Source: Gammaproteobacteria bacterium
GTDB taxonomy: Bacteria; Pseudomonadota; Gammaproteobacteria; Steroidobacterales; Steroidobacteraceae
Assembly (NCBI GenBank): GCA_028293805.1
Contig: JAQGOC010000124.1
Coordinates: 1 to 64,000 of the forward strand
Direction of reading: 5' to 3'
Length of the DNA: 64,000 nt
A program made the translations under genes and the position numbers. The notes below the pieces were generated by a model, which ran no database searches, was not told the origin of the DNA, and saw only the letters and a program-made list of their open reading frames with translations. This document shows, one piece after another, positions 3,950 through 31,565 of this stretch (positions within the stretch are counted from its first letter, which is position 1; each line of letters begins with the position of its first letter).

Positions 3950-4256
3950 GGCACCCTCCTATTGGAACCACGGATAAGATAGTCGATTGGCAGGTGCGGA
4001 TCTTGGCGTCGAGGCGGGTCGGCTCGGGCGGCAAGCGCTGGATGCAATCCGTGAAGTCCGTAAGCCATTGTTCTTGTTCGCGAAAAAAGGACAGCTTCGC
4101 GGGCTGATCGGGTGACAATCCGCAGGCAACGGGCGCTGGTTTGCGCAAGCGCGCAGCAGGTCACAAAACTGAAAAGCGGATACCAGCTATGCCCATGCCT
4201 GCCGAAAACCTAAGGAGTTCCGGAGCCATCGCTCGATACGGAGGTCGGTTCGCCCT
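3950..4256. other. Divergent intergenic region between amidase and HDOD genes
   Basis: About 300 bases that must hold the promoters of two divergent genes. A GGAGG ribosome binding site lies just before 4257. I found no strong palindrome or convincing -35/-10 pair, and no coding region I would support. Confidence 0.45.
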
Positions 4257-5408
4257 ATGCTGATCTGGTTTCTATCGTTGCTCCTGGTTACCGCCTGTGG
4301 AATAGCCACGTGGCCTGTCCTGCGCTGGGCCTCCGGTTTCGATGCGGTCGTCGCGGGAGGGCCGGTCGAAGTTGTGCTCGAGCTGCCGGCCGACCTGCAG
4401 TACTTGCCTGAGCCCCCAGTCCTACCCGCAGCTGCGGTGCAGATTCTCGATCGTACCGGAATCTTCAGGAAATTGAGGGAGCTCGAGTTAGGTCTTTCAG
4501 CTCTCGGGCGACCGTTGCCGGAGCACGACCAGATGGCAGCAGCTGCACTCGCCGCAATAGGCGATGTGACCACGCAACGGCGATATTCCCCGAGGCGCCC
4601 GAATCTGCTACCTCAATTGATGCGCGCGATCAATGATGAGCAGGTCTCGGGGCGCGAGTTGGCCGCCTTGATTGCACGCGACCCATCGCTAGTGGGTAGC
4701 TTGCTGAAGATAGCGAACAGCACTTTCTATCGCGTCACCTCCCGACCGGTCGAAACCATTGAACGGGCGGTCGTCATACTGGGGAGCGATGGTCTTCGCT
4801 CGTTGATGGCTGCTGCCCTGATGCAGCCGATCTTCCAGGTAACCAGGGCGGGGAAATTCTCACGCTTTCCGGAAATTGTCTGGGAACACGCGCTGCGTTC
4901 GGCCCATGCTGCCATTCCGCACGCGGCCTTGGTCGAAAGGGCGGACGCGTTCGCGGCTGAGCTACTCAGCCTCATCAGCGGGCTGGCGGAGATCACGTTG
5001 TTCCGCGCAATAATGGATCACTGCGCAACCTCGGCACCGCAAGGGCAACCTGACCCTCTGGTGATCGCCTCCCTCCTCGACTCGCAGTCCGCTGCCGTCG
5101 CCTGGCGAATCGGCGCCAGTTGGGAGCTCTCGGAGGTGATGTTGGCTGCGCTCGAGGAGCAGATGGTGGAATCCACGCCGACTACGCCGCTCGGCCGTTC
5201 GCTGCGTTTCGGCCGTTGCGCGGGCGCGTTGGCTGTGCTGCACACCAGCTCCGTCATAGATGATGCAACGGTGAGACTCTCCCTGCCGGAGGCCGGCCTG
5301 TCAGCCCCGCATCTGAAGGCCATGTGGACGCGGCTTCTACAGAAGCATGAGGATCCCAGGTCGCGGCGGTCAGTTCCTTTCCAGAACGATCGCGCGCTTC
5401 AAGCATGA
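4257..5408 (+). CDS. HDOD domain protein, membrane-anchored
   Basis: Probable signalling protein with a metal-independent HD-related output domain (HDOD). Residues 1-22 form one hydrophobic segment that could anchor it in the inner membrane. The HDOD domain runs from about residue 118 to 310; diagnostic stretches are LIARDPSLVGSLLKIANS and ETIERAVVILGSDGLRSL, which match the family closely. No catalytic HD pair is expected in HDOD proteins and none is evident. A strong GGAGG precedes the ATG. The gene stands alone, so its partner pathway cannot be inferred. A hairpin follows it at 5470-5501. Confidence 0.85.
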   Translation: MLIWFLSLLLVTACGIATWPVLRWASGFDAVVAGGPVEVVLELPADLQYLPEPPVLPAAAVQILDRTGIFRKLRELELGLSALGRPLPEHDQMAAAALAAIGDVTTQRRYSPRRPNLLPQLMRAINDEQVSGRELAALIARDPSLVGSLLKIANSTFYRVTSRPVETIERAVVILGSDGLRSLMAAALMQPIFQVTRAGKFSRFPEIVWEHALRSAHAAIPHAALVERADAFAAELLSLISGLAEITLFRAIMDHCATSAPQGQPDPLVIASLLDSQSAAVAWRIGASWELSEVMLAALEEQMVESTPTTPLGRSLRFGRCAGALAVLHTSSVIDDATVRLSLPEAGLSAPHLKAMWTRLLQKHEDPRSRRSVPFQNDRALQA

Positions 5409-5469
5409 GGTCTCATTGACTGTCGTGGCCGTCACGCCCCAGGTCAGAGGCCTCTATTTCAGGTGAAAC

Positions 5470-5501
5470 GAAACCGCGCAGGCACTCACTGCGGGGGTTT
5501 C
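5470..5501 (+). terminator. Candidate terminator after HDOD gene
   Basis: GAAACC at 5470-5475 pairs with GGTTTC at 5496-5501, and the inner CGCA (5477-5480) pairs with TGCG (5490-5493) around a 9-base loop. The right arm ends in a short T-run (TTTC). It lies 62 bases after the HDOD stop codon. Confidence 0.5.
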
Positions 5502-21551: not shown

Positions 21552-24500
21552 ATGGATTCGAGATGGCAGGCCGCCGCGCTGGAGCTTACGGAAGGAACGC
21601 GCCAAACGCTCCGCGATGATGGCGAGTTCGCACTTTACCGTGTCCGGTTCCGGAGCTCGACCAACGAGACTCTGCAATCCGCGCTCGTGGTCGCCCCGCT
21701 TCGGGAACACACCGCTCCGCGGAGCCTGCGCCGTATGGAGCACGAATATTCGTTGCGAGCCGAACTCGATCCCGCCTGGGCCGTTCGGCCTCTCGCGCTC
21801 GCCAGGCATCAGGGGCGCCCTGTGCTCGTGCTCGAGGACCCCGGAGGCGAACCTCTGGACCGACTGGTTGGAACGCCCATGCAATTGCGACAATTCCTCC
21901 TTGTCGCAATTGGACTGTCGGCCGCGCTCGGCCGGGTTCACCAGCACGGCCTCATCCACAAAGACGTCAAACCCGCCAACGCTCTCGTGAACGCTGCGAC
22001 CGGCCAGGTGTGGCTGATGGGCTTCGGCATCGCATCGCGGCTGCCACGCGAACGGCAGTCGCCCGACCCTCCGGAAGTTCTCGCCGGAGCGCTCGCCTAC
22101 ATGGCGCCCGAACAAACGGGACGCATGAATCGTTCGATCGACTCTCGCAGCGACCTGTATTCACTCGGCGTCACGCTGTATGAAATGCTGACCGGCAGCC
22201 TGCCGTTCACCGCGTCCGATCCAATGGAATGGATTCACTGTCATATCGCGAGACAGCCCGTGCAGCCGAGCGAGCGGTCGAAGCAGGTCCCAGCTCCTGT
22301 TTCTGCCCTGATCCTCAAGCTCCTCGCCAAGACCGCCGAAGACCGCTATCAGACTGCGGCCGGTGTCGAAGCTGACCTCAGGCGGTGCCTCGGCGAATGG
22401 GACGCCAACAGACGCATCGCCGCCTTCGCTCTCGGCGCGCACGACACGTCAGACAGACTTCTGATGCCCGAGAAGCTGTACGGGCGTGATCAAGAACGCG
22501 AGGCCCTGCTCGCCGCCTTCGAGCGGGTGATCACCACCGGAACACCGGTTCTGGTTCTGGTCCACGGCTATCCCGGGATCGGCAAGTCCTCGGTCGTCCA
22601 TGAACTGCACAAAGCGATCGTCCTGCCGCGCGGCGTCTTCCTATCCGGGAAGTTCGACCAGTATCGACGGGATATTCCGTATGCCACGCTTGCCCAGGCG
22701 TTCCGGACTGTCATTGGCCATATTCTGAGCGAGAGCGAGGTAGAGGTTGACCGTTGGCGCAACGCGATCCGCAAATCCGTTGGCGCGAATGGTCAACTCA
22801 TTGTCAGCCTCATTCCCGAGCTCGAGTTCGTCATCGGCAAGCAGCCACTGGTTGCGGCGCTCCCCGCCACGGAAGCCGAGAGCCGTTTTCACATGGTGTT
22901 CCGCGCCTTTCTGGGTGTCTTCGCCTGCACGGAGCACCCGCTCGCCCTCTTTCTCGACGATCTTCAGTGGCTGGATGCGGCGACCCTCAAGCTGCTAGAG
23001 CACCTCATGACGCACCCTGACGTCCGTCATCTGCTCCTCATCGGGGCATTTCGGGAGAACGAGGTGAGCACCTCTCACCCCTTGATGCAAACTCTGGATG
23101 CCGTTCGGGGAACCGGCGCCGTGGTGCGCGATATCGCTCTCGCGCCTCTCTCGCTCGACGATGTGACCCATTTCGTTGCTGACACGCTGCATTGTGAGCA
23201 CGCCTCTGCCGAGCCCCTCGCCCGGCTCGTGTACGACAAAACGCTGGGTAATCCTTTTTTCGCGATCCAATTCCTCACGGCGCTGGCCGAGGAAGGGCTG
23301 CTTGCCTTCGAACCGGACGCGGCCGCGTGGAGGTGGAATCTGGGGCGCATCCGGGCCAAAGGCTACACCGACAACGTGGTGGATCTCATGGTCGGCAAGC
23401 TGAAACGATTGTCCGACTCGACGCAGGAACGGCTCAAGCAACTTGCCTGCCTGGGGAGCGTGGCCGAGATCGGCACTCTGACCCTGGTTCACGGACGATC
23501 CGAAGAGGAAATCCACACGGCACTGTGGGAGGCGCTCCGCACGGAGTTGATCGTCCGCCAGGACGGCGGCTACGCGTTCATCCACGACCGCGTCCAGGAG
23601 GCGGCCTACGGACTCATCCCTGCTGGCGAGCGTCCGGCGATCCATCTTCGGATCGGCAGGCTGCTTGCAGGTCAGACGCCCGCGGAGAAACTCGAGGACC
23701 GCATCTTCGAGATCGTAAATCAGCTCAACCGCGGCGCCGGGTTGATCACTTCACGGGAAGAGCGGGAGCGAGTCGCCGGGCTCAACCTCATTGCGGGCGA
23801 GCGGGCCAAAACCTCGGCGGCGTACGCCTCGGCGCTGGCATATTTTGCCGCCGGCCGGGCGCTGCTCACAGAGAACGCCTGGGAGCAGCGCTATTCGCTC
23901 CTGTTTGCGCTGGAGTTCCACCGTGCAGAGTGCGAATTTCTGAGCAGTCACCTGGCGGTTGCCGAACAACGGCTCGCCGCCCTCGCGGCGCGTACCGCGA
24001 CGCTGGTTGATAGTGCCGCGGTTGCATGCCTGCGCCTGGAGCTCTACACGACCTTGGATCGCAGCGATCGCGGCATCGAGCTGTGCCTGGAGTACCTGCG
24101 GCGCATCGGTGTGCAATGGTCGGCACACCCGACAAAGGAGCAGGTGCGCAAGGAATACGATGAGCTCTGGCGGCGCATCGGCAGCCGTTCCATCGAAGCC
24201 CTGGTCGAGCTGCCGTTGACCAGCGACCCGGATTGGCGCGCCACTCTGGATGTCCTCGCGCAAGTCGTCACGCCCGCTTTGTTTACGGATGACAACTTGC
24301 TCTGCCTGGTCCTCTGCCGCATGGCGAACATCAGTCTCGAGCATGGCAACAGCGGAGCCTCGTGTTTCGCCTATGTGTGGCTCGGCATGATCGTGGGCCC
24401 GCACTTCAACGACTACCCGACGGCGTTCCGCTTCGGCCAGCTCGGCTTCGAGCTGGTCGAGCAGCGGGGCCTGGATCGCTTCATGGCCCGTGTCTTCATG

Positions 24501-27500
24501 TCATTCGGCAACCTCGTCAATCCTTGGACGCAGCACATCCGCACCGGCCGCCCGTTGGTGCGGCGCGCCTTCAACACGGCCAACGAGATCGGCGACCTCA
24601 CCTTTGCAGCTTATAGCTGCAACAATCTGATCACCAACCTGCTCGCTTCTGGCGAGCCATTGCCTGACATCCAGCGGGAAGCCGAGGCCGGACTCGCATT
24701 CGCGCGCAAGATTCGGTTCGGTCTCGTCATCGACATCATCACCAGCCAGTTGCGGCTGATCCTTACGCTGCGAGGTCTGACGCCAGCATTCAACTCCTTC
24801 AACGATACGCAATTCGACGAGGTGCGCTTCGAGGAGCACTTCGAGGCGGATCCGCGCCTCGCACTTCCCTCGTGTTGGTATTGGATCCTCAAGTTGCAAG
24901 CGCGCTTTCATGCGGGTGAGTATGAGTCCGCCATCGAGGCGGAATTGCAGGCGCAACGGCTGCTGTGGACCTCACCATCATTCTTTGAGGTAGCCGAATA
25001 CCGTTTTTACGCCGCGCTTGCGCGAGCGGCATACTGCAACGCGAACTCGGGCGACCAGCATCCCGTGCACCTGGAAGCTCTGGCCGCGCATCAGCGGCAA
25101 CTCGAGATATGGGCGCATCATTGCCCCGAGAACTTCGGAAACCGCACGGCGTTGATCGGCGCCGAGATCGCCCGCATCGAAGGGCGGCCGCTCGACGCCG
25201 AGCGGCTCTACGAAGAGTCCATCCGGCTCGCGCGCGAGAACGGCTTCATTCAGAACGAAGCTATCGCTGGCGAGCTCGCCGCGCGCTTCTATGCGGCACG
25301 TGGATTCGAGACCATCGCCCAAGCGTACCTGCGCAACGCCCGCTACTGCTATTTGCAGTGGGGGGCCGACGGCAAGGTGCGGCAACTGGATGAGTCCAAC
25401 CCGCAGCTGCGGGCGGAGCCGTCGCCGGCCCACGCGACGAGCACGATCCGGGCCCCGGTCGAACACCTGGATCTCACGACTGTAGTCAAGGTCTCGCAAG
25501 CGGTCTCGGGCGAGATCGTTCCCGAAAAGCTCATCGACACGCTCATGCGAACCGCACTCGAGCACGCCGGAGCACAGCGCGGACTCTTGATCGTTCCGCA
25601 CGCTGGTGCGCAGCAAATCGAGGCGGAAGCCACGACCAGCGGCGACACAATCAGCGTCCGCTTCCGGCAAGCGAGCGTCTCAGCGGCAGAACTGCCCGAG
25701 TCCGTCCTTCACTACGTGCTACGGACACAGGAGAGCGTGATTCTGGACGATGCCTCCGCCCAGAGCGTGTTTTCCGCCGATGAGTACATCCGCCGCAATC
25801 GCGTCCGTTCCGTTCTCTGCCTGCCTCTGATCAAACAGGCCACACTGATCGGCGTGCTCTACCTCGAAAATAACCTGACTCCCCACGTGTTCACGCCTGC
25901 CCGGAACGCCGTCCTGAAGCTGATCGCCTCCCAGGCCGCGGTTTCGCTGGAGAATGCCCACCTTTATACGGACCTGAAGCAGGAGAACAGCGAGCGGCGG
26001 CGCGCCGAAGAGGCTCTGCGGCGCAACCAGGCCTATCTCGCTCAAGCGCAAACCGTGAGCCACACGGGCAGTTTCGGCTGGAATGCCGCAACCGATGAGA
26101 TCTACTGGTCTGCGGAGTGCTTTCGGATCTTTGGATTCGAGCCGGCGGTCCCACCCAACCTCGCGCGAATAATTGAACAAACGCATCCGGACGACAAGGA
26201 CTTGCTGGAGCAGACGCTCGATCGCGCACGAGAGGAGAAGAAGGAATTTGATCTGGAGTATCGCTTGCTGATGCAGGATGGTTCAGTGAAACATCTCCAG
26301 GTCGTGGCTCGTGCCTTGGCGGATGAAACAGGCGACCTCGAGTTTGTCGGTGCGGTGATGGACGTCACCCGGCGCAAATGCGCGGAGGAAGTGCAACGAG
26401 TGCAGGAACAGGAGCGTGAGGAGATGCAGCGGCAGCTGCAGCAGGCCGCTAAAATGGAGGCGATCGGGCGGCTGGCCGGTGGCATTGCGCATGATTTCAA
26501 CAACATCCTGGGCGCGATTCTCGGTTACGCGGAACTGGCGCAGAACAACGTGGGAGAAGGCGGCGCCGTGCGCCACCAGCTCGATCAGGTGATGCATGCA
26601 GGCGCCCGCGGGAAGGGCCTTGTCGATCGCATCCTCGCTTTCAGCCGCAGCGGTATGGGCGAGCGCGTGCCGATCCCGGTGCAGTCGGTCGTCGAAGAGA
26701 CGCTCGAGCTGCTTGCAGCATCCCTGCCTGCGGATGTGCATCTGGAGAGGCGACTTCATGCGCTCGACATGGCGGTTGTGGGCGACGCAACCCAGTTTCA
26801 CCAGGTCGTCATGAATCTCTGCACGAATGCGCTGCATGCAATGGGGCGCGGCGGCGTGCTTACAGTGGTGCTTGAGTGTGTAGTGGTCGGTGAGCGCCGC
26901 TTACTGTCGCATGGCACCCTGTGCGCCGACCGCTACGCGCGCCTCTCAATCAGTGACACCGGCAGCGGCATCCCGCCCGCGGTGCTGGAGCGCATGTTCG
27001 ATCCGTTCTTCACCCCCAAACGGGTCGGCGATGGCACCGGCCTTGGCCTTGCGTTGGTCCATGGGATCGTTGCGGACTTTCGCGGTGTCATTGACGTGGC
27101 GACGCAGGTAGGCGCGGGCACCACGTTCACGATCTGGCTGCCGGCCGCGGACGAAAGGCCCAATCTCGTGGTGCAACCTGCCGGCGAGCTGCCGCGAGGC
27201 AACGGCGAGGCCGTAATGATCGTAGACGATGAGCGTGCGCTGGTGGCGCTCGCGGAAGAGACGCTTGCCGAGCTGGGCTACGAGCCGGTGGGGTTTGACT
27301 CGAGCCTCGCCGCTTTACAGGCGTTTCGCGCGGAACCGCAGCGCTTCGATCTCGTCCTGACCGACGAGACCATGCCGGACCTCATGGGGACCGAGCTGGC
27401 CCGTGAGATCCGGCGGTTGCGACCCGAAATTGCAATCATACTCATGAGCGGCTACAGCGATTCGCAACTGAGCGACCGCGCACAGGCCGTTGGGGTCATT

Positions 27501-27575
27501 GAGGTGCTCCGCAAACCACTCATTCGCCGCGATATCGCTGAGCCGGTCGCGCGTGCGCTGCAGGCACGCTACTAG
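21552..27575 (+). CDS. Hybrid protein: kinase-like/ATPase/GAF/PAS/histidine kinase/receiver
   Basis: 2007-residue signalling protein. Domains in order: Ser/Thr kinase-like fold (1-280), AAA/STAND ATPase with Walker A GYPGIGKS (339-346) and Walker B LFLDDLQWLD (466-475), a long TPR-like helical region, GAF (about 1306-1470), PAS (about 1496-1620), HisKA with phospho-His1647 in GGIAHDFNNI, HATPase with N-box near 1752 and DTGSGIPP near 1801, and a C-terminal receiver with Asp1938 in VLTDETMPD. No membrane segment is clear. The kinase-like domain keeps HKDVKPAN (136-143) but has MGFG instead of DFG and no evident ATP-binding lysine. The ATG follows GGAGAGG. Its stop overlaps that of the opposing kinase gene. 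No output regulator is adjacent. Confidence 0.93.
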   Translation: MDSRWQAAALELTEGTRQTLRDDGEFALYRVRFRSSTNETLQSALVVAPLREHTAPRSLRRMEHEYSLRAELDPAWAVRPLALARHQGRPVLVLEDPGGEPLDRLVGTPMQLRQFLLVAIGLSAALGRVHQHGLIHKDVKPANALVNAATGQVWLMGFGIASRLPRERQSPDPPEVLAGALAYMAPEQTGRMNRSIDSRSDLYSLGVTLYEMLTGSLPFTASDPMEWIHCHIARQPVQPSERSKQVPAPVSALILKLLAKTAEDRYQTAAGVEADLRRCLGEWDANRRIAAFALGAHDTSDRLLMPEKLYGRDQEREALLAAFERVITTGTPVLVLVHGYPGIGKSSVVHELHKAIVLPRGVFLSGKFDQYRRDIPYATLAQAFRTVIGHILSESEVEVDRWRNAIRKSVGANGQLIVSLIPELEFVIGKQPLVAALPATEAESRFHMVFRAFLGVFACTEHPLALFLDDLQWLDAATLKLLEHLMTHPDVRHLLLIGAFRENEVSTSHPLMQTLDAVRGTGAVVRDIALAPLSLDDVTHFVADTLHCEHASAEPLARLVYDKTLGNPFFAIQFLTALAEEGLLAFEPDAAAWRWNLGRIRAKGYTDNVVDLMVGKLKRLSDSTQERLKQLACLGSVAEIGTLTLVHGRSEEEIHTALWEALRTELIVRQDGGYAFIHDRVQEAAYGLIPAGERPAIHLRIGRLLAGQTPAEKLEDRIFEIVNQLNRGAGLITSREERERVAGLNLIAGERAKTSAAYASALAYFAAGRALLTENAWEQRYSLLFALEFHRAECEFLSSHLAVAEQRLAALAARTATLVDSAAVACLRLELYTTLDRSDRGIELCLEYLRRIGVQWSAHPTKEQVRKEYDELWRRIGSRSIEALVELPLTSDPDWRATLDVLAQVVTPALFTDDNLLCLVLCRMANISLEHGNSGASCFAYVWLGMIVGPHFNDYPTAFRFGQLGFELVEQRGLDRFMARVFMSFGNLVNPWTQHIRTGRPLVRRAFNTANEIGDLTFAAYSCNNLITNLLASGEPLPDIQREAEAGLAFARKIRFGLVIDIITSQLRLILTLRGLTPAFNSFNDTQFDEVRFEEHFEADPRLALPSCWYWILKLQARFHAGEYESAIEAELQAQRLLWTSPSFFEVAEYRFYAALARAAYCNANSGDQHPVHLEALAAHQRQLEIWAHHCPENFGNRTALIGAEIARIEGRPLDAERLYEESIRLARENGFIQNEAIAGELAARFYAARGFETIAQAYLRNARYCYLQWGADGKVRQLDESNPQLRAEPSPAHATSTIRAPVEHLDLTTVVKVSQAVSGEIVPEKLIDTLMRTALEHAGAQRGLLIVPHAGAQQIEAEATTSGDTISVRFRQASVSAAELPESVLHYVLRTQESVILDDASAQSVFSADEYIRRNRVRSVLCLPLIKQATLIGVLYLENNLTPHVFTPARNAVLKLIASQAAVSLENAHLYTDLKQENSERRRAEEALRRNQAYLAQAQTVSHTGSFGWNAATDEIYWSAECFRIFGFEPAVPPNLARIIEQTHPDDKDLLEQTLDRAREEKKEFDLEYRLLMQDGSVKHLQVVARALADETGDLEFVGAVMDVTRRKCAEEVQRVQEQEREEMQRQLQQAAKMEAIGRLAGGIAHDFNNILGAILGYAELAQNNVGEGGAVRHQLDQVMHAGARGKGLVDRILAFSRSGMGERVPIPVQSVVEETLELLAASLPADVHLERRLHALDMAVVGDATQFHQVVMNLCTNALHAMGRGGVLTVVLECVVVGERRLLSHGTLCADRYARLSISDTGSGIPPAVLERMFDPFFTPKRVGDGTGLGLALVHGIVADFRGVIDVATQVGAGTTFTIWLPAADERPNLVVQPAGELPRGNGEAVMIVDDERALVALAEETLAELGYEPVGFDSSLAALQAFRAEPQRFDLVLTDETMPDLMGTELAREIRRLRPEIAIILMSGYSDSQLSDRAQAVGVIEVLRKPLIRRDIAEPVARALQARY

Positions 27576-30139
27576 TCGGAAGACGGGGACCGCTTTGGCG
27601 TGGTGCAAACGGCGAGCTCCCGGTCGATCTGGCCCGATTGGACGCTCAGCTGCTTGCGCCACTGCTCGTCGAGTTCGGCGGCCGCCAGAATCGGGCGGCT
27701 GTGCTCGAACCACCGCTCCGCCGCCGCGCAATGACGTTTCTGTGCAGCCCGAGGCACCCCTGGATCTGCGGCATGCCGGGCATCGATCTGCCCGAGACGG
27801 AAGTAAGCGGTCCCCTGCAGGACCTTTGCCGCACTCAGACGGGTATCGATCGCCGGCGAGAGTATCTCGAGGGACTCGCGCAAGTTCCGCTCAGCCGCTT
27901 CGGTGTCACCCAGCGCAACCTGCGTTTCACCCACCTCCGCGAGGGCAAACGCGGCGTTGTAGCGAGCTTCCTGGTTCGCGACGTCGGCGTTGAACAGCGC
28001 GCGAAGCGTGTTCATCGCGTCCATCCGCTTGGATAGAGCCGCACGCGGTGTGCCTTGCTTCGACAAGGCCGTTCCCATTCCCAGAAGTGCGTACGCCTCG
28101 ATCGTCTGCAAGTCGAAGTTGTGCGGATCTTCAGCCAGCAATCCCCGCACGATCTCGAGTTCTCTTGTGTGCATCTGGTACGCGGTGGCATAGCGGTGCG
28201 TCGAGCCGGAGAGAGTCTCGCCCAGGCGCCCGTAGGCTACCGCCAGGTTATGACGAGTACGCGCGTCGCGCGGATCGGCGTCCACTAATGTCTCGAATAC
28301 GGCAGTTCCGTGGTTCATGAGCGCGAGGCCGCGCTCGACCTCGTTGAAGCTTGCGAGCTGCCAACCCAGGCTCACGTAGGTACTGCCGAGATTGCGCCGG
28401 TCGTACGTCGTTGAATCGCTGCTGGCGGCCAATTGCTCCGCCAGCTCGACCGCCCGGCGCGCGCTTTCGATCGCCCCTTGGCGGTCCCCAACTCCCGCTA
28501 CTACTTCGCTCAGCTTTCCATAGTTTCTCAACAGCTCGCGACGCAGGTCGGGCTCCGCGGGTGCGTTGGCCAGCAGCGCATTGCGTATTTTAAGCGCCTC
28601 GCGGTAGCTGGCGATCGCACCCGTGGTGTCGCCGAGGTTTGCAGCCCGAAAACCGCCCTGTACATCCGCCAGCTTCTCGTAGGCCGTAGCTAGCTCTCTG
28701 CGCAGGGACGCATCGCTGCCCGACTCCCTCGAGAGTGCGTCAAGGTACCGCAGCGAGTTTGAGACCAGCACATGGCGAGCGGGCGTGGCGCCGGGAAGAT
28801 TTTCGATTGCCGAATGAACGTCGAACATGAACGTGTTGGCCAGCTTGCGTACCTCGGTGAAGTGCCGCTCGGCGCGGGCGCGCTCTTCGCGGGCCACGTG
28901 AGCCTGCCAGCTCGTCGCAACGATTCCGCCGACGAGAGTGAGCACGAACAGCGTTGCCGCGGTCACCCCCGCCTTATGCCGGCCGACGAACTTCGCGAGG
29001 TTGTATCGGAGGCCCGGAGTACGCGCCAACACGGGAAAGCCATCCAGATGGCGGCGTATGTCTTCTTCCATCTGCGCCACCGAGGCATAGCGGTTCGCCG
29101 GGTCCTTCTGCAGGGCCATCAGGACAATTGCATCCAGATCGCCTGTCAGATCACGCCAGGACCCCACGGCGCGGCCGCTCGCATTCATCCTGGCCGTGAC
29201 CGAAGGCGGTACCGGGTCCGTCTCGCAGATCTGCGCCGCAAGCTTGTATTGCAGCTGTCCAGAGGCCTGAAACGGTGTCTCGCCCGCAAGCAGGCGATAT
29301 AACATCACGCCCAACGAATACACATCGCTCGCAGTGGTAACCTGTCCGCCACGGATCTGCTCGGGGCTGGCATATTCGGGCGTAAAGGCAATCACACTGG
29401 TCATTCGGGGGTCTGCCTCCCCGGGGACTTGCGCCGGACGCATGAGCTTGGCGATGCCGAAATCGAGCAGCCGCAGGGCTCCTGCCTCCGTGACCAGAAC
29501 GTTGCTTTCCTTGAGATCCGCATGAACCATCAGGTGCTGGTGTACATACTGCACCGTCGAGCAAAGTGTCCTGAAAAGCTCGAGACGGGCGCTGATCGAG
29601 AGCGCTTCCTGCCCCACGTACTCGTCGATCGGCGCCCCGTTCACGTAGTCCATCACGAGGTATGGCAGCCCCTCATCGGTGCTGCCGCCATCGAGTATTC
29701 TTGCAATGTTGGGATGATCAAGCGTCGCAAGAATCTGCTTTTCAGTCCTGAAGCGCCTGAGCAGCGACTGCGTATCGTATCCCCGGCGTAAGACTTTGAC
29801 TGCGACTTCCTTGTGGAAGTCATCGTCGTCGCGAACGGCTTTGTATACAACGCTCATGCCGCCGCGGCCGATCTCCGAGACGATGCGGTAGACGCCCAGC
29901 CGGCGACCCGTCCACGCAGGCGGCTCAGGCTCGTCCAGGCCCGGGTGTTCCCGAGCGGCTGGCCGCTCGATGAAATCATTTGCCTGCGCGTGAGCTTCGA
30001 GCAGGGACTGGATCTCCGTCTGCAGCTCCATCTCTCCGGCGCACTGGTCTGCAAGATAAGCCGCACGTTCCCCTGGTTCTCGCTCGAGAGCAGCGCAGAA
30101 GATTTCCTTTACCCGCTGCCAGCGGTCGAGTTCTTGCAT
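27572..30139 (-). CDS. Membrane Ser/Thr protein kinase with TPR-type extension, ECF-coupled
   Basis: About 855-residue Hanks-type kinase. A short helical N-terminal region (1-60) typical of ECF-linked kinases precedes the kinase domain (84-370): glycine loop GRGGMSVV (91-98), Lys115 in EVAVKVL, catalytic loop HADLKESN (206-213, with Ala where Arg is usual) and DFG (226-228). One transmembrane helix at about 391-411 is followed by a long TPR-like periplasmic region, presumably the sensor. The ATG at 30139 overlaps the sigma factor stop by one base (TGATG), indicating translational coupling. It likely phosphorylates the sigma factor or a partner. Confidence 0.92.
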   Translation of the reverse strand: MQELDRWQRVKEIFCAALEREPGERAAYLADQCAGEMELQTEIQSLLEAHAQANDFIERPAAREHPGLDEPEPPAWTGRRLGVYRIVSEIGRGGMSVVYKAVRDDDDFHKEVAVKVLRRGYDTQSLLRRFRTEKQILATLDHPNIARILDGGSTDEGLPYLVMDYVNGAPIDEYVGQEALSISARLELFRTLCSTVQYVHQHLMVHADLKESNVLVTEAGALRLLDFGIAKLMRPAQVPGEADPRMTSVIAFTPEYASPEQIRGGQVTTASDVYSLGVMLYRLLAGETPFQASGQLQYKLAAQICETDPVPPSVTARMNASGRAVGSWRDLTGDLDAIVLMALQKDPANRYASVAQMEEDIRRHLDGFPVLARTPGLRYNLAKFVGRHKAGVTAATLFVLTLVGGIVATSWQAHVAREERARAERHFTEVRKLANTFMFDVHSAIENLPGATPARHVLVSNSLRYLDALSRESGSDASLRRELATAYEKLADVQGGFRAANLGDTTGAIASYREALKIRNALLANAPAEPDLRRELLRNYGKLSEVVAGVGDRQGAIESARRAVELAEQLAASSDSTTYDRRNLGSTYVSLGWQLASFNEVERGLALMNHGTAVFETLVDADPRDARTRHNLAVAYGRLGETLSGSTHRYATAYQMHTRELEIVRGLLAEDPHNFDLQTIEAYALLGMGTALSKQGTPRAALSKRMDAMNTLRALFNADVANQEARYNAAFALAEVGETQVALGDTEAAERNLRESLEILSPAIDTRLSAAKVLQGTAYFRLGQIDARHAADPGVPRAAQKRHCAAAERWFEHSRPILAAAELDEQWRKQLSVQSGQIDRELAVCTTPKRSPSSD

Positions 30140-30777
30140 CACGTCTGTTGTCGCGACAACTCGCGTCGCAGCCATGCGCGGGCGACTGTCCACTCGCGCT
30201 TTACGGTCGCATCCGAAATGTCGAGGGCTCGAGCGGTCTCGTCGATGGTGAGTCCACCAAAGTAGCGCATCTCCACGATTTTCACCTGGCGCGCATCGAT
30301 CACCGCCAGCCGTTCGAGGGCAGCATCGATCGCAGCCAACTCATCGTCTGATTCATGGTCCGGAGTGTGTGGCTCGGGAATCGAGTCGGCGGGTGAGGCA
30401 GCCGCCTGGTCATTCGACTCACCCGTACCGATGATCTCCTCGAGGCTTAGAACGGCTGCGCCTCCGCCGCGCTTGGATGCGAGACGCGCGCGCGCGTGAT
30501 CCACCAGAATCCTTCGCATGGTACTGGACGCCAACGCGAAGAAATGTCCACGGCTGCGCCAGTCAATGGACTGTTGATCCACCAGCCGAACGAAAGCTTC
30601 GTGAACGAGCGCCGTGCGCTGGATCGTGTGATTCGACCGCTCGCGGCGCAAATGGCGCTGAGCGAGCGTCCGCAATTCCTGGTAGAGGAGCGCCGTCAGC
30701 TCGCTCAACGCGGCCTCGTCGCCGCCACTCCAATTCGTGAGTAGCCGGGTTACCGGACGATCCAGCTCATTCTTCAT
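30139..30777 (-). CDS. ECF sigma factor of the Ser/Thr kinase-linked type
   Basis: 212-residue sigma-70 family ECF factor. Region 2 spans about residues 25-100 and includes LYQELRTLAQRHLRRER, TALVHEAFVRL and RRILVDHARARLASKRGGG; region 4 (about 160-205) has MRYFGGLTIDETARALDISDATVKREW. An acidic linker joins them. No anti-sigma gene is near; a kinase gene is coupled downstream instead. The segment that in most ECF factors carries acidic residues for core RNA polymerase binding here reads HTIQRTALVHEAF, with Thr51 and Thr55, consistent with a kinase-controlled switch. Start ATG at 30777 follows a moderate ribosome binding site. Confidence 0.92.
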   Translation of the reverse strand: MKNELDRPVTRLLTNWSGGDEAALSELTALLYQELRTLAQRHLRRERSNHTIQRTALVHEAFVRLVDQQSIDWRSRGHFFALASSTMRRILVDHARARLASKRGGGAAVLSLEEIIGTGESNDQAAASPADSIPEPHTPDHESDDELAAIDAALERLAVIDARQVKIVEMRYFGGLTIDETARALDISDATVKREWTVARAWLRRELSRQQT

Positions 30778-30968: not shown

Positions 30969-31565
30969 ATGTTGCGCCCACAGGTCATTCCACGCCGCAG
31001 GATCCGAATCCCCGCCGCACTCGCCGCGGCCACGACTACGGCGGTCCTCTTCATCGGGGTCGGCAACGCGGTTTCCATTCCCGGCAAGGCGAATCCCGCG
31101 TCCCTCGACTCCAGGCCGGCGGGTACTCACGAAATCCCCTCAATAGCGCGCGGTCGCTATCTTGTTGCGGTGACCGGCTGTAACGACTGCCACACACCCG
31201 GATATGGCGAACGGGCCGGTGAGATGCCGGTGTCCGACTGGCTAACAGGCCAATCGGTCGGATTCAGCGGACCCTGGGGAACGAGCTATCCGGCCAACTT
31301 GCGCCTGACTCTTCAGGGACTGACAGAGTCGCAATGGGTGGTGTTTGCGCGCGCGGAAAGACGCCCGCCGATGCCGTGGTTCTCACTCAAAAAAATGAGC
31401 GACGCGGACCTGCGCGACATCTATCGGTTCATCCGCTCGCTGGGACCTAAAGGCGAGCCGGCACCGGCCGCGGTCGCGCCGGGCGACAAAGTCGAAACGC
31501 CCTTCATCCTGTTTACGCCGCAAACAGTTATGACACCCGCCCTTTCGAGCGATCGAACGCGTTAA
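30969..31565 (+). CDS. Exported c-type cytochrome
   Basis: 198-residue periplasmic mono-heme cytochrome c. A signal peptide or anchor (about 1-36) with a twin-Arg-rich start is followed by the heme site CNDCH (71-75) in ARGRYLVAVTGCNDCHTPG. A methionine in PPMPWFSLKKMSDADL is a plausible sixth ligand, and DIYRFIRSLGP is the usual C-terminal helix of the family. It may pass electrons to or from a periplasmic dehydrogenase, none of which is adjacent. GGAG precedes the ATG. The NmrA-family gene follows by 10 bases, so the two probably share a transcript. Confidence 0.88.
   Translation: MLRPQVIPRRRIRIPAALAAATTTAVLFIGVGNAVSIPGKANPASLDSRPAGTHEIPSIARGRYLVAVTGCNDCHTPGYGERAGEMPVSDWLTGQSVGFSGPWGTSYPANLRLTLQGLTESQWVVFARAERRPPMPWFSLKKMSDADLRDIYRFIRSLGPKGEPAPAAVAPGDKVETPFILFTPQTVMTPALSSDRTR

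Follow-up and report, generated by a model that had tools for sequence, protein, structure and literature searches.

A predicted ECF43-type sigma factor/kinase switch in a Steroidobacteraceae genome and a kinase N-terminal domain associated with sigma factor genes

Results and discussion

Overlapping sigma factor and kinase genes

We analyzed a 64,000-nucleotide stretch of DNA (the window), positions 1 to 64,000 of contig JAQGOC010000124.1 from a gammaproteobacterium of the Steroidobacteraceae (GCA_028293805.1), in which a gene for an extracytoplasmic function (ECF) sigma factor is followed directly by a gene for a Hanks-type Ser/Thr kinase. An initial annotation, made from the sequence alone, proposed that the two products work like the EcfP-PknT switch. 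The best explanation for the pair, and one that we hold with considerable confidence, is an ECF43-type phospho-switch in which a small N-terminal domain of the kinase (the N-domain) would serve as a dock for the sigma factor. The two genes and their junction are as follows.

30139-30777, minus strand: ECF sigma factor, 212 amino acids, TIGR02999/PF07638 (ECF43-type) (translation, profile matches, AlphaFold2 model, Foldseek)
27572-30139, minus strand: Hanks-type Ser/Thr kinase, 855 amino acids, predicted to be membrane-anchored, with a C-terminal part resembling tetratricopeptide repeats (TPR) (profiles, PDB match, hydropathy)
30137-30141, minus strand: TGATG, overlap of sigma factor stop and kinase start (sequence read)

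The sigma factor gene is real and runs from ATG to TGA on the minus strand, an orientation that the initial annotation had left unstated; frame 1 of the plus strand over 30139-30777 is interrupted by stop codons. Because its product scores 209.6 bits against TIGR02999 (cut-off 126.15) and 190.9 bits against PF07638 (E=2.5e-56), profile searches place it in this family far beyond chance. An AlphaFold2 model of the protein has nine helices and a mean predicted local distance difference test (pLDDT) value of 84.4, and every one of the three Foldseek matches to this model at E up to 0.001 is the ECF sigma factor SigW. Profiles, model and fold matches thus describe a two-domain ECF sigma factor of the TIGR02999/PF07638 type. 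The motif and kinase linkage described below suggest that ECF43 falls inside TIGR02999. The closest relatives that bear family names come from Steroidobacteraceae-type genomes.

The kinase gene begins with the ATG at 30139, one base of which also belongs to the sigma factor stop codon, as first reported. No anti-sigma gene adjoins, again in agreement with the earlier description, since the divergent neighbors encode a cytochrome c-like protein (30969-31565) and then an NmrA-like protein. A sigma factor gene beside a Hanks-type kinase gene, with no anti-sigma gene, is the arrangement expected of an ECF43-type system, and the pair is found in unchanged order in four Steroidobacteraceae-like loci (L048-L051).

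Replacement of the acidic motif in sigma region 2.2

Three features of region 2.2 bear on the proposed switch.

30610-30621, minus strand: QRTA (residues 53-56) replacing DAED (translation, alignments)
30613-30615, minus strand: Thr55, predicted phospho-acceptor, equivalent to EcfK T51 and to the second Thr of EcfP STTA (offset from the conserved LVHE, SigL alignment, column counts)
30625-30627, minus strand: Thr51, conserved, not the published phosphosite (column counts; loop before helix 54-67)

In ECF43 sigma factors, as described in PMC8999054 and PMC13147305, DAED gives way to an uncharged motif (STTA in EcfP, QATE in EcfK, consensus QTTA), and the third residue of the motif, which is Thr in 88% of members, is phosphorylated. 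The window sigma factor carries the segment HTIQRTALVHE at residues 50-60, with Thr51 and Thr55 where the initial annotation had placed them, and the acidic cluster reported there as missing is indeed absent. QRTA contains no acidic residue, its third residue is Thr, and its only charged residue, Arg54, is basic. Glu60, the conserved Glu of the DxxDxxQE motif, is retained.

An alignment had been suggested from the outset as the appropriate check, and we built one from 81 sequences (the window protein and 80 relatives). When the resulting profile is aligned to the solved SigL, Thr55 lies opposite the Glu of QAED, the third position of DAED. This position is Ser or Thr in 76 of the 81 sequences (Ser in four), with Gly in two and Asn, Ile and Ala in one each; it is never Asp or Glu, and so the replacement of DAED is a rule of the family and no peculiarity of the window protein. 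Acidic residues occur at position 53 in 10 sequences and at position 56 in four.

Both threonines had been put forward as candidates for the switch residue. The alignment assigns the published position to Thr55 and not to Thr51, and Thr51 was set aside as first choice. In the AlphaFold2 model, Thr55 occupies the first turn of a predicted helix (54-67) and Thr51 lies one turn earlier, in the preceding loop. Position 51 is Ser or Thr in 65 of the 81 sequences and Asp or Glu in six, four of which belong to the stand-alone-domain group L091-L094 described below; Thr51 may therefore have a role of its own.

A subgroup of the sigma factors carries Asp53 and Thr54 (DTIG, DTTA, DTGS, DTSA), sometimes with loss of Thr55. 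It includes L002, from the same genome as the window (contig C333), and L007, L013, L014, L071, L072, L097, L130 and L139.

A PknS-like kinase of a non-RD branch

The kinase has the following parts in addition to the N-domain.

29084-29890, minus strand: protein kinase catalytic domain, residues 84-352, non-RD (HAD for HRD) (Pkinase profile, loop comparison)
28907-28972, minus strand: predicted transmembrane helix, residues about 390-411 (hydropathy)

The membrane Ser/Thr kinase named in the initial annotation is borne out by the Pkinase match at residues 84-352 and by one strongly hydrophobic stretch at about 390-411. The protein as a whole scores 30.5 against TPR_8 (cut-off 25.7), with no single repeat passing alone. 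Among 177,635 distinct PDB sequences its best match is 9EED, over residues 6-366, which the data statement of PMC13147305 identifies as PknS of Xanthomonas citri. The window kinase has the PknS-like order of an N-terminal helical part, a kinase domain, a transmembrane segment and a TPR-rich part, with the topology being predicted. We took HRD, the catalytic loop usual in Hanks kinases, as our own yardstick, and the window kinase has HAD instead. HAD or HGD is also found in the L048-L051 kinases, and HRD in 85 of 103 distinct N-domain kinases. Sequence comparison thus assigns the window kinase a PknS-like architecture, yet places it in a non-RD branch. The window branch is marked by this catalytic loop together with a 43-residue acidic linker in the sigma factor.

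Comparison with known systems reveals both likenesses and differences. The EcfK-PknS pair of X. citri (ECF43; PMC13147305) also combines a sigma factor in which DAED is replaced and the third position is Thr with a cognate membrane Hanks kinase that has an N-terminal helical part, a kinase domain, a transmembrane segment and a periplasmic TPR-rich part, and the match of the window kinase to 9EED includes the N-domain. The differences are that EcfK QATE has an acid beside the Thr whereas QRTA has a basic residue and no acid, that the window sigma factor has a linker longer than most relatives, that the window kinase is non-RD, and that EcfK controls a type VI secretion system (PMC13147305). EcfP-PknT of Vibrio parahaemolyticus (ECF43), which we liken to the window pair by description only, has the acid-free STTA motif, the second Thr of which is phosphorylated by the adjacent kinase to supply charge (PMC8999054, PMC8103513, PMC13147305); its target, polymyxin resistance, is not known to be common to the window pair.

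Taken together, the most likely identity of the pair is that of an ordinary ECF43-type switch, with wiring already described in other bacteria. It adds a further bacterium to those with this known, recently described kind of switch, and comes with a phosphosite predicted at the level of a single residue. We know of no fixed kinase neighbor of the ECF43-pair kind for SigH of Mycobacterium tuberculosis. SigH resembles the window sigma factor in that a Hanks kinase, PknB, phosphorylates it, partly in the linker, but SigH lies outside ECF43 (PMC13147305).

A proposed phospho-switch at Thr55

The EcfP-PknT-like mode of action suggested in the initial annotation is supported by the motif, by the position of Thr55 in the alignment and by PknS being the best PDB relative of the kinase; phosphorylation, its effect and the topology of the kinase would follow by homology. 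We propose that the unmodified sigma factor binds only weakly to core RNA polymerase, in that QRTA would not offer the beta' clamp helices the negative charge of DAED. The membrane kinase would sense through its C-terminal part, taken as extracytoplasmic by analogy with PknS, and its N-domain would recognize the sigma factor and present it to the catalytic domain. Phosphorylation of Thr55 would then restore the charge and allow the sigma factor to join the polymerase, and Ser111 in the linker might provide a second phosphorylation site. By analogy with the described ECF43 systems, we consider a phospho-switch at Thr55 to be highly probable.

Three sets of observations weigh against this proposal. 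First, the T51A variant of EcfK keeps its function in X. citri as long as T106 is present (PMC13147305), so the switch may not depend on Thr55 alone. Second, in ten relatives with flanks of 2 kb or more on each side of the sigma factor gene, no kinase match was found there, and eight of these retain Thr55 (L052, L054, L055, L056, L058, L096, L097, L098), with Ser in L091 and Ala in L101. Because eight of the ten keep Thr, Thr55 alone is no proof of kinase control. Third, the second TIGR02999 sigma factor of the same genome has Ile55 and Thr54, and a kinase adjoins it. Thr55 was also rejected as an indicator of a neighboring kinase, since it does not discriminate: relatives in which no kinase was found nearby keep it.

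An alternative is that Thr55 is kept for structural reasons, capping or starting the region 2.2 helix, and that the sigma factor binds polymerase unmodified while the kinase acts elsewhere or control is exerted through abundance. The location of Thr55 in the first helical turn, its retention in the eight relatives listed above and the activity of EcfK T51A would all fit such a role. However, the corresponding Thr of EcfP is phosphorylated and supplies a needed charge (PMC8999054), and the four Ser residues at this position are the substitution expected of a phospho-acceptor, although Gly, Asn, Ile and Ala also occur. Moreover, the kinase linkage is both tight and wide: of 63 sigma factor genes in 12 genomes of the same order, 57 lie no more than 5 kb from a listed kinase. 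We regard a purely structural role for Thr55 as improbable.

The EcfK results direct attention to the linker, which has two features of note.

30337-30465, minus strand: long acidic sigma2-sigma4 linker, 43 residues (length versus the median of 22 in 81 sequences; low pLDDT)
30445-30447, minus strand: Ser111, putative counterpart of T106, the second phosphosite of EcfK (column with Ser, Thr, Asp or Glu in 69 of 81 sequences)

The main switch might reside here, in Ser111 and the long insert, as with EcfK T106, leaving Thr55 secondary. The linker is rich in Asp and Glu and nearly twice the median length, and in EcfK either T51 or T106 alone is enough (PMC13147305). Ser111 is the probable equivalent of T106 as judged from the conservation pattern in an alignment that does not include EcfK; for the T106 column, a figure of 76.9% is given across all ECF43 members (PMC13147305). 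For EcfP, in contrast, a single phosphosite is reported, and it corresponds to Thr55 (PMC13147305). In addition, QRTA is acid-free whereas EcfK QATE keeps a Glu beside the Thr, and so Thr55 should matter more in the window sigma factor than T51 does in EcfK. A main switch in the linker therefore seems unlikely to us, and we retain Thr55 as the predicted site.

A kinase N-terminal domain that accompanies sigma factor genes

The new lead from this analysis is the small, unnamed N-domain, which marks sigma-neighboring kinases across several phyla.

29966-30133, minus strand: N-terminal helical domain, kinase residues 3-58, proposed sigma-docking module (no Pfam/NCBIfam match; AlphaFold2; PDB profile; association tests)

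The AlphaFold2 model of this domain has three helices (2-18, 22-32 and 37-57; mean pLDDT 81). Searches of Pfam returned only scattered weak matches (best E=0.024, at most two of 35 members), and searches of NCBIfam gave no significant match (best E=0.025, one of 43 members each). The model found nothing in Foldseek at E up to 0.001, and VIA-align gave Z 5.3 at best, establishing neither a match nor a new fold. A profile of 43 sequences has a sole significant relative in the PDB, 9EED (PknS; E=8.4e-10, with the next at 0.065). The first 81 residues of PknS are invisible in the crystal and, in the available text, are described only as three to four predicted helices (PMC13147305). A literature search covering titles and the beginnings of abstracts yielded no description of the N-domain; PMC13147305, in its available parts, mentions that region of PknS without a function.

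In the genome that carries the window, 16 kinases were detected, and the N-domain is present in only the two that lie beside the two sigma factor genes. We extended this comparison to three genome sets, counting a sigma factor gene within 5 kb of a kinase as associated. One genome (G200) is included in the sigma factor and N-domain counts and excluded from the kinase counts. For the 12 same-order genomes, 150 of the 161 kinase matches were listed; among these, the N-domain occurs in 52 of 56 sigma-near kinases versus 10 of 94 others, and 84 kinases have neither the N-domain nor a sigma factor gene within 5 kb (p=3e-25; this and the following p values ignore relatedness and are inflated by the 5-kb rule and by profile seeds from some of the same genomes). 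A set of seven genomes, reached through named loci of Steroidobacter type and from Acidobacteria, a planctomycete and a Rhodothermales bacterium, gave 27 of 27 sigma-near kinases with the N-domain versus 12 of 104 others, with 92 having neither (p=5e-19).

The profile seeds are common to these two sets. A third set, of 299 genomes drawn from the phylum, shares among the rows listed only the window's own genome with the seeds. Here we accepted sigma factors at E up to 1e-25 and domains at E up to 1e-4, with at most 10 sigma factor and 20 domain candidates scored per genome. Sigma factors of this kind were found in 17 genomes and the N-domain in 10, all of them among the 17. With the window's own genome removed, the domain is present in nine of 16 sigma-bearing genomes versus none of 282 others (p=2.5e-13). 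Judged by their coordinates, 21 of the 32 domain hits are no more than 5 kb from a listed sigma factor gene, and four more are near sigma factor genes found solely by a purpose-made sigma profile. The seven sigma-bearing genomes without a domain hit comprise four with a weak hit (E 0.004-0.04), two with an N-terminal extension that gives no hit and one with no kinase in a short flank.

Some kinases depart from the association and count against it. Four sigma-near kinases in the 12-genome set have no domain hit: L011 and L171 give weak matches (E about 0.03-0.04), in L170 the kinase is extended at its N terminus but gives no hit, and the L109 kinase lacks such a domain. Also, the L100 kinase lacks the domain and lies more than 5 kb from its sigma factor gene.

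Stand-alone N-domain proteins and covariation with sigma factors

The N-domain is not confined to kinases. Six short frames (73-101 codons) carry it with no kinase domain, and five of these are no more than 3 kb from a TIGR02999 sigma factor gene.

Stand-alone N-domain frames: L090:2617-2919, L091:3543-3842, L092:3528-3770, L093:2843-3070, L094:2339-2560, L095:3916-4134

Eight kinase-free domain hits were obtained in the 12-genome set, of which two weak ones were dropped (E 0.004 and 0.01; 136 codons, and 38 codons with a stop). The L091-L095 frames come each from a different genus, with three families of the order represented, and share 33-52% identity over 50-63 residues, with nine of ten pairs matching. 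The L091 frame is near a sigma factor gene, with no kinase in the surrounding 8 kb. In the sigma factors of L091-L094, position 51 is acidic (Asp or Glu) and position 55 is Ser, Asn or Thr.

We also compared evolutionary distances in 86 neighboring sigma factor/kinase pairs, from which duplicates and kinases with fewer than 60 pre-catalytic residues had been excluded. Distances in the N-domain core follow those of the sigma factor with r=0.67 (0.57 as a partial correlation controlling for the kinase domain), versus 0.45 for the N-domain and the kinase domain of its own chain. Kinase-domain windows of equal length give 0.29-0.62 with the sigma factor, the top value coming from the first 50 columns. 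In four subsets, which together hold 82 of the 86 pairs, the partial correlation between N-domain and sigma factor is 0.75 (own genus), 0.68 (named loci), 0.36 (phylum set) and 0.21 (order set), values reached by 0, 0, 1 and 45 of 1000 permutations, respectively. This covariation supports either contact between N-domain and sigma factor or their co-inheritance, with a signal that appears clearest in the own-genus and named-loci subsets and mixed elsewhere. Against contact, the kinase domain tracks the sigma factor better than the N-domain does in the order set (0.58 vs 0.21) and the phylum set (0.58 vs 0.36), and the association of the N-domain may in part reflect shared descent.

Perhaps, then, the N-domain serves to regulate the kinase, by dimerization or autoinhibition, and its link to sigma factors reflects the shared descent of an old gene pair and not binding. 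The domain is fused to a kinase, and the link holds across phyla. N-domain kinases also have no listed sigma factor gene within 5 kb in 10 of 62 cases among the matches listed for the 12 genomes and in 12 of 39 cases in the seven genomes, and kinase-sigma covariation is itself strong, and stronger in two subsets. Set against these points are the stand-alone versions beside sigma factor genes, including the kinase-free L091 locus, the pooled distances, which track the sigma factor above the domain's own kinase domain, and the 299-genome result, in which the N-domain is found solely where the sigma factor is found. We consider this regulatory explanation plausible, if on the doubtful side.

Direct contact between N-domain and sigma factor, which is suggested by their association, is in our estimation evenly balanced. 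We suggest, more tentatively, that the N-domain could be an undescribed sigma-recognition module that confers on a Hanks kinase its specificity for one sigma factor and is distributed across Proteobacteria, Acidobacteria, Planctomycetes and Rhodothermales, and that the stand-alone proteins could form a new class of small sigma regulators, such as decoys, adaptors or anti-sigma-like holders. If the N-domain is a sigma dock, it would help to explain how pairs are kept separate in cells with up to about 30 such sigma factor genes; one Acidobacteria genome has 33 matches to the sigma family. It would also provide a sequence marker for sigma-activating kinases and make rewiring tests possible.

Neighboring genes and minor observations

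Besides frames antisense to the pair and cross-matches between kinases, the sole further gene found to be shared between the window locus and L048-L051 is the cytochrome c-like one, in L049. On the plus strand at 21552-27575 lies a gene for a hybrid protein of 2007 amino acids that combines kinase-like, AAA_16, GAF, PAS, histidine kinase and receiver domains. This gene and the sigma-linked kinase gene share four bases at their 3' ends. In L098, from a genome of the same genus, two sigma-like genes (4020-4895 and 4899-5501) stand head to tail, the first being a weak match to the sigma profile. Judged by eye, the genes that follow the sigma factor at two loci, with no kinase, encode a protein resembling a TonB-type receptor (L013:2114-3541) and one resembling a cyclic-nucleotide-binding protein (L014:2050-3537).

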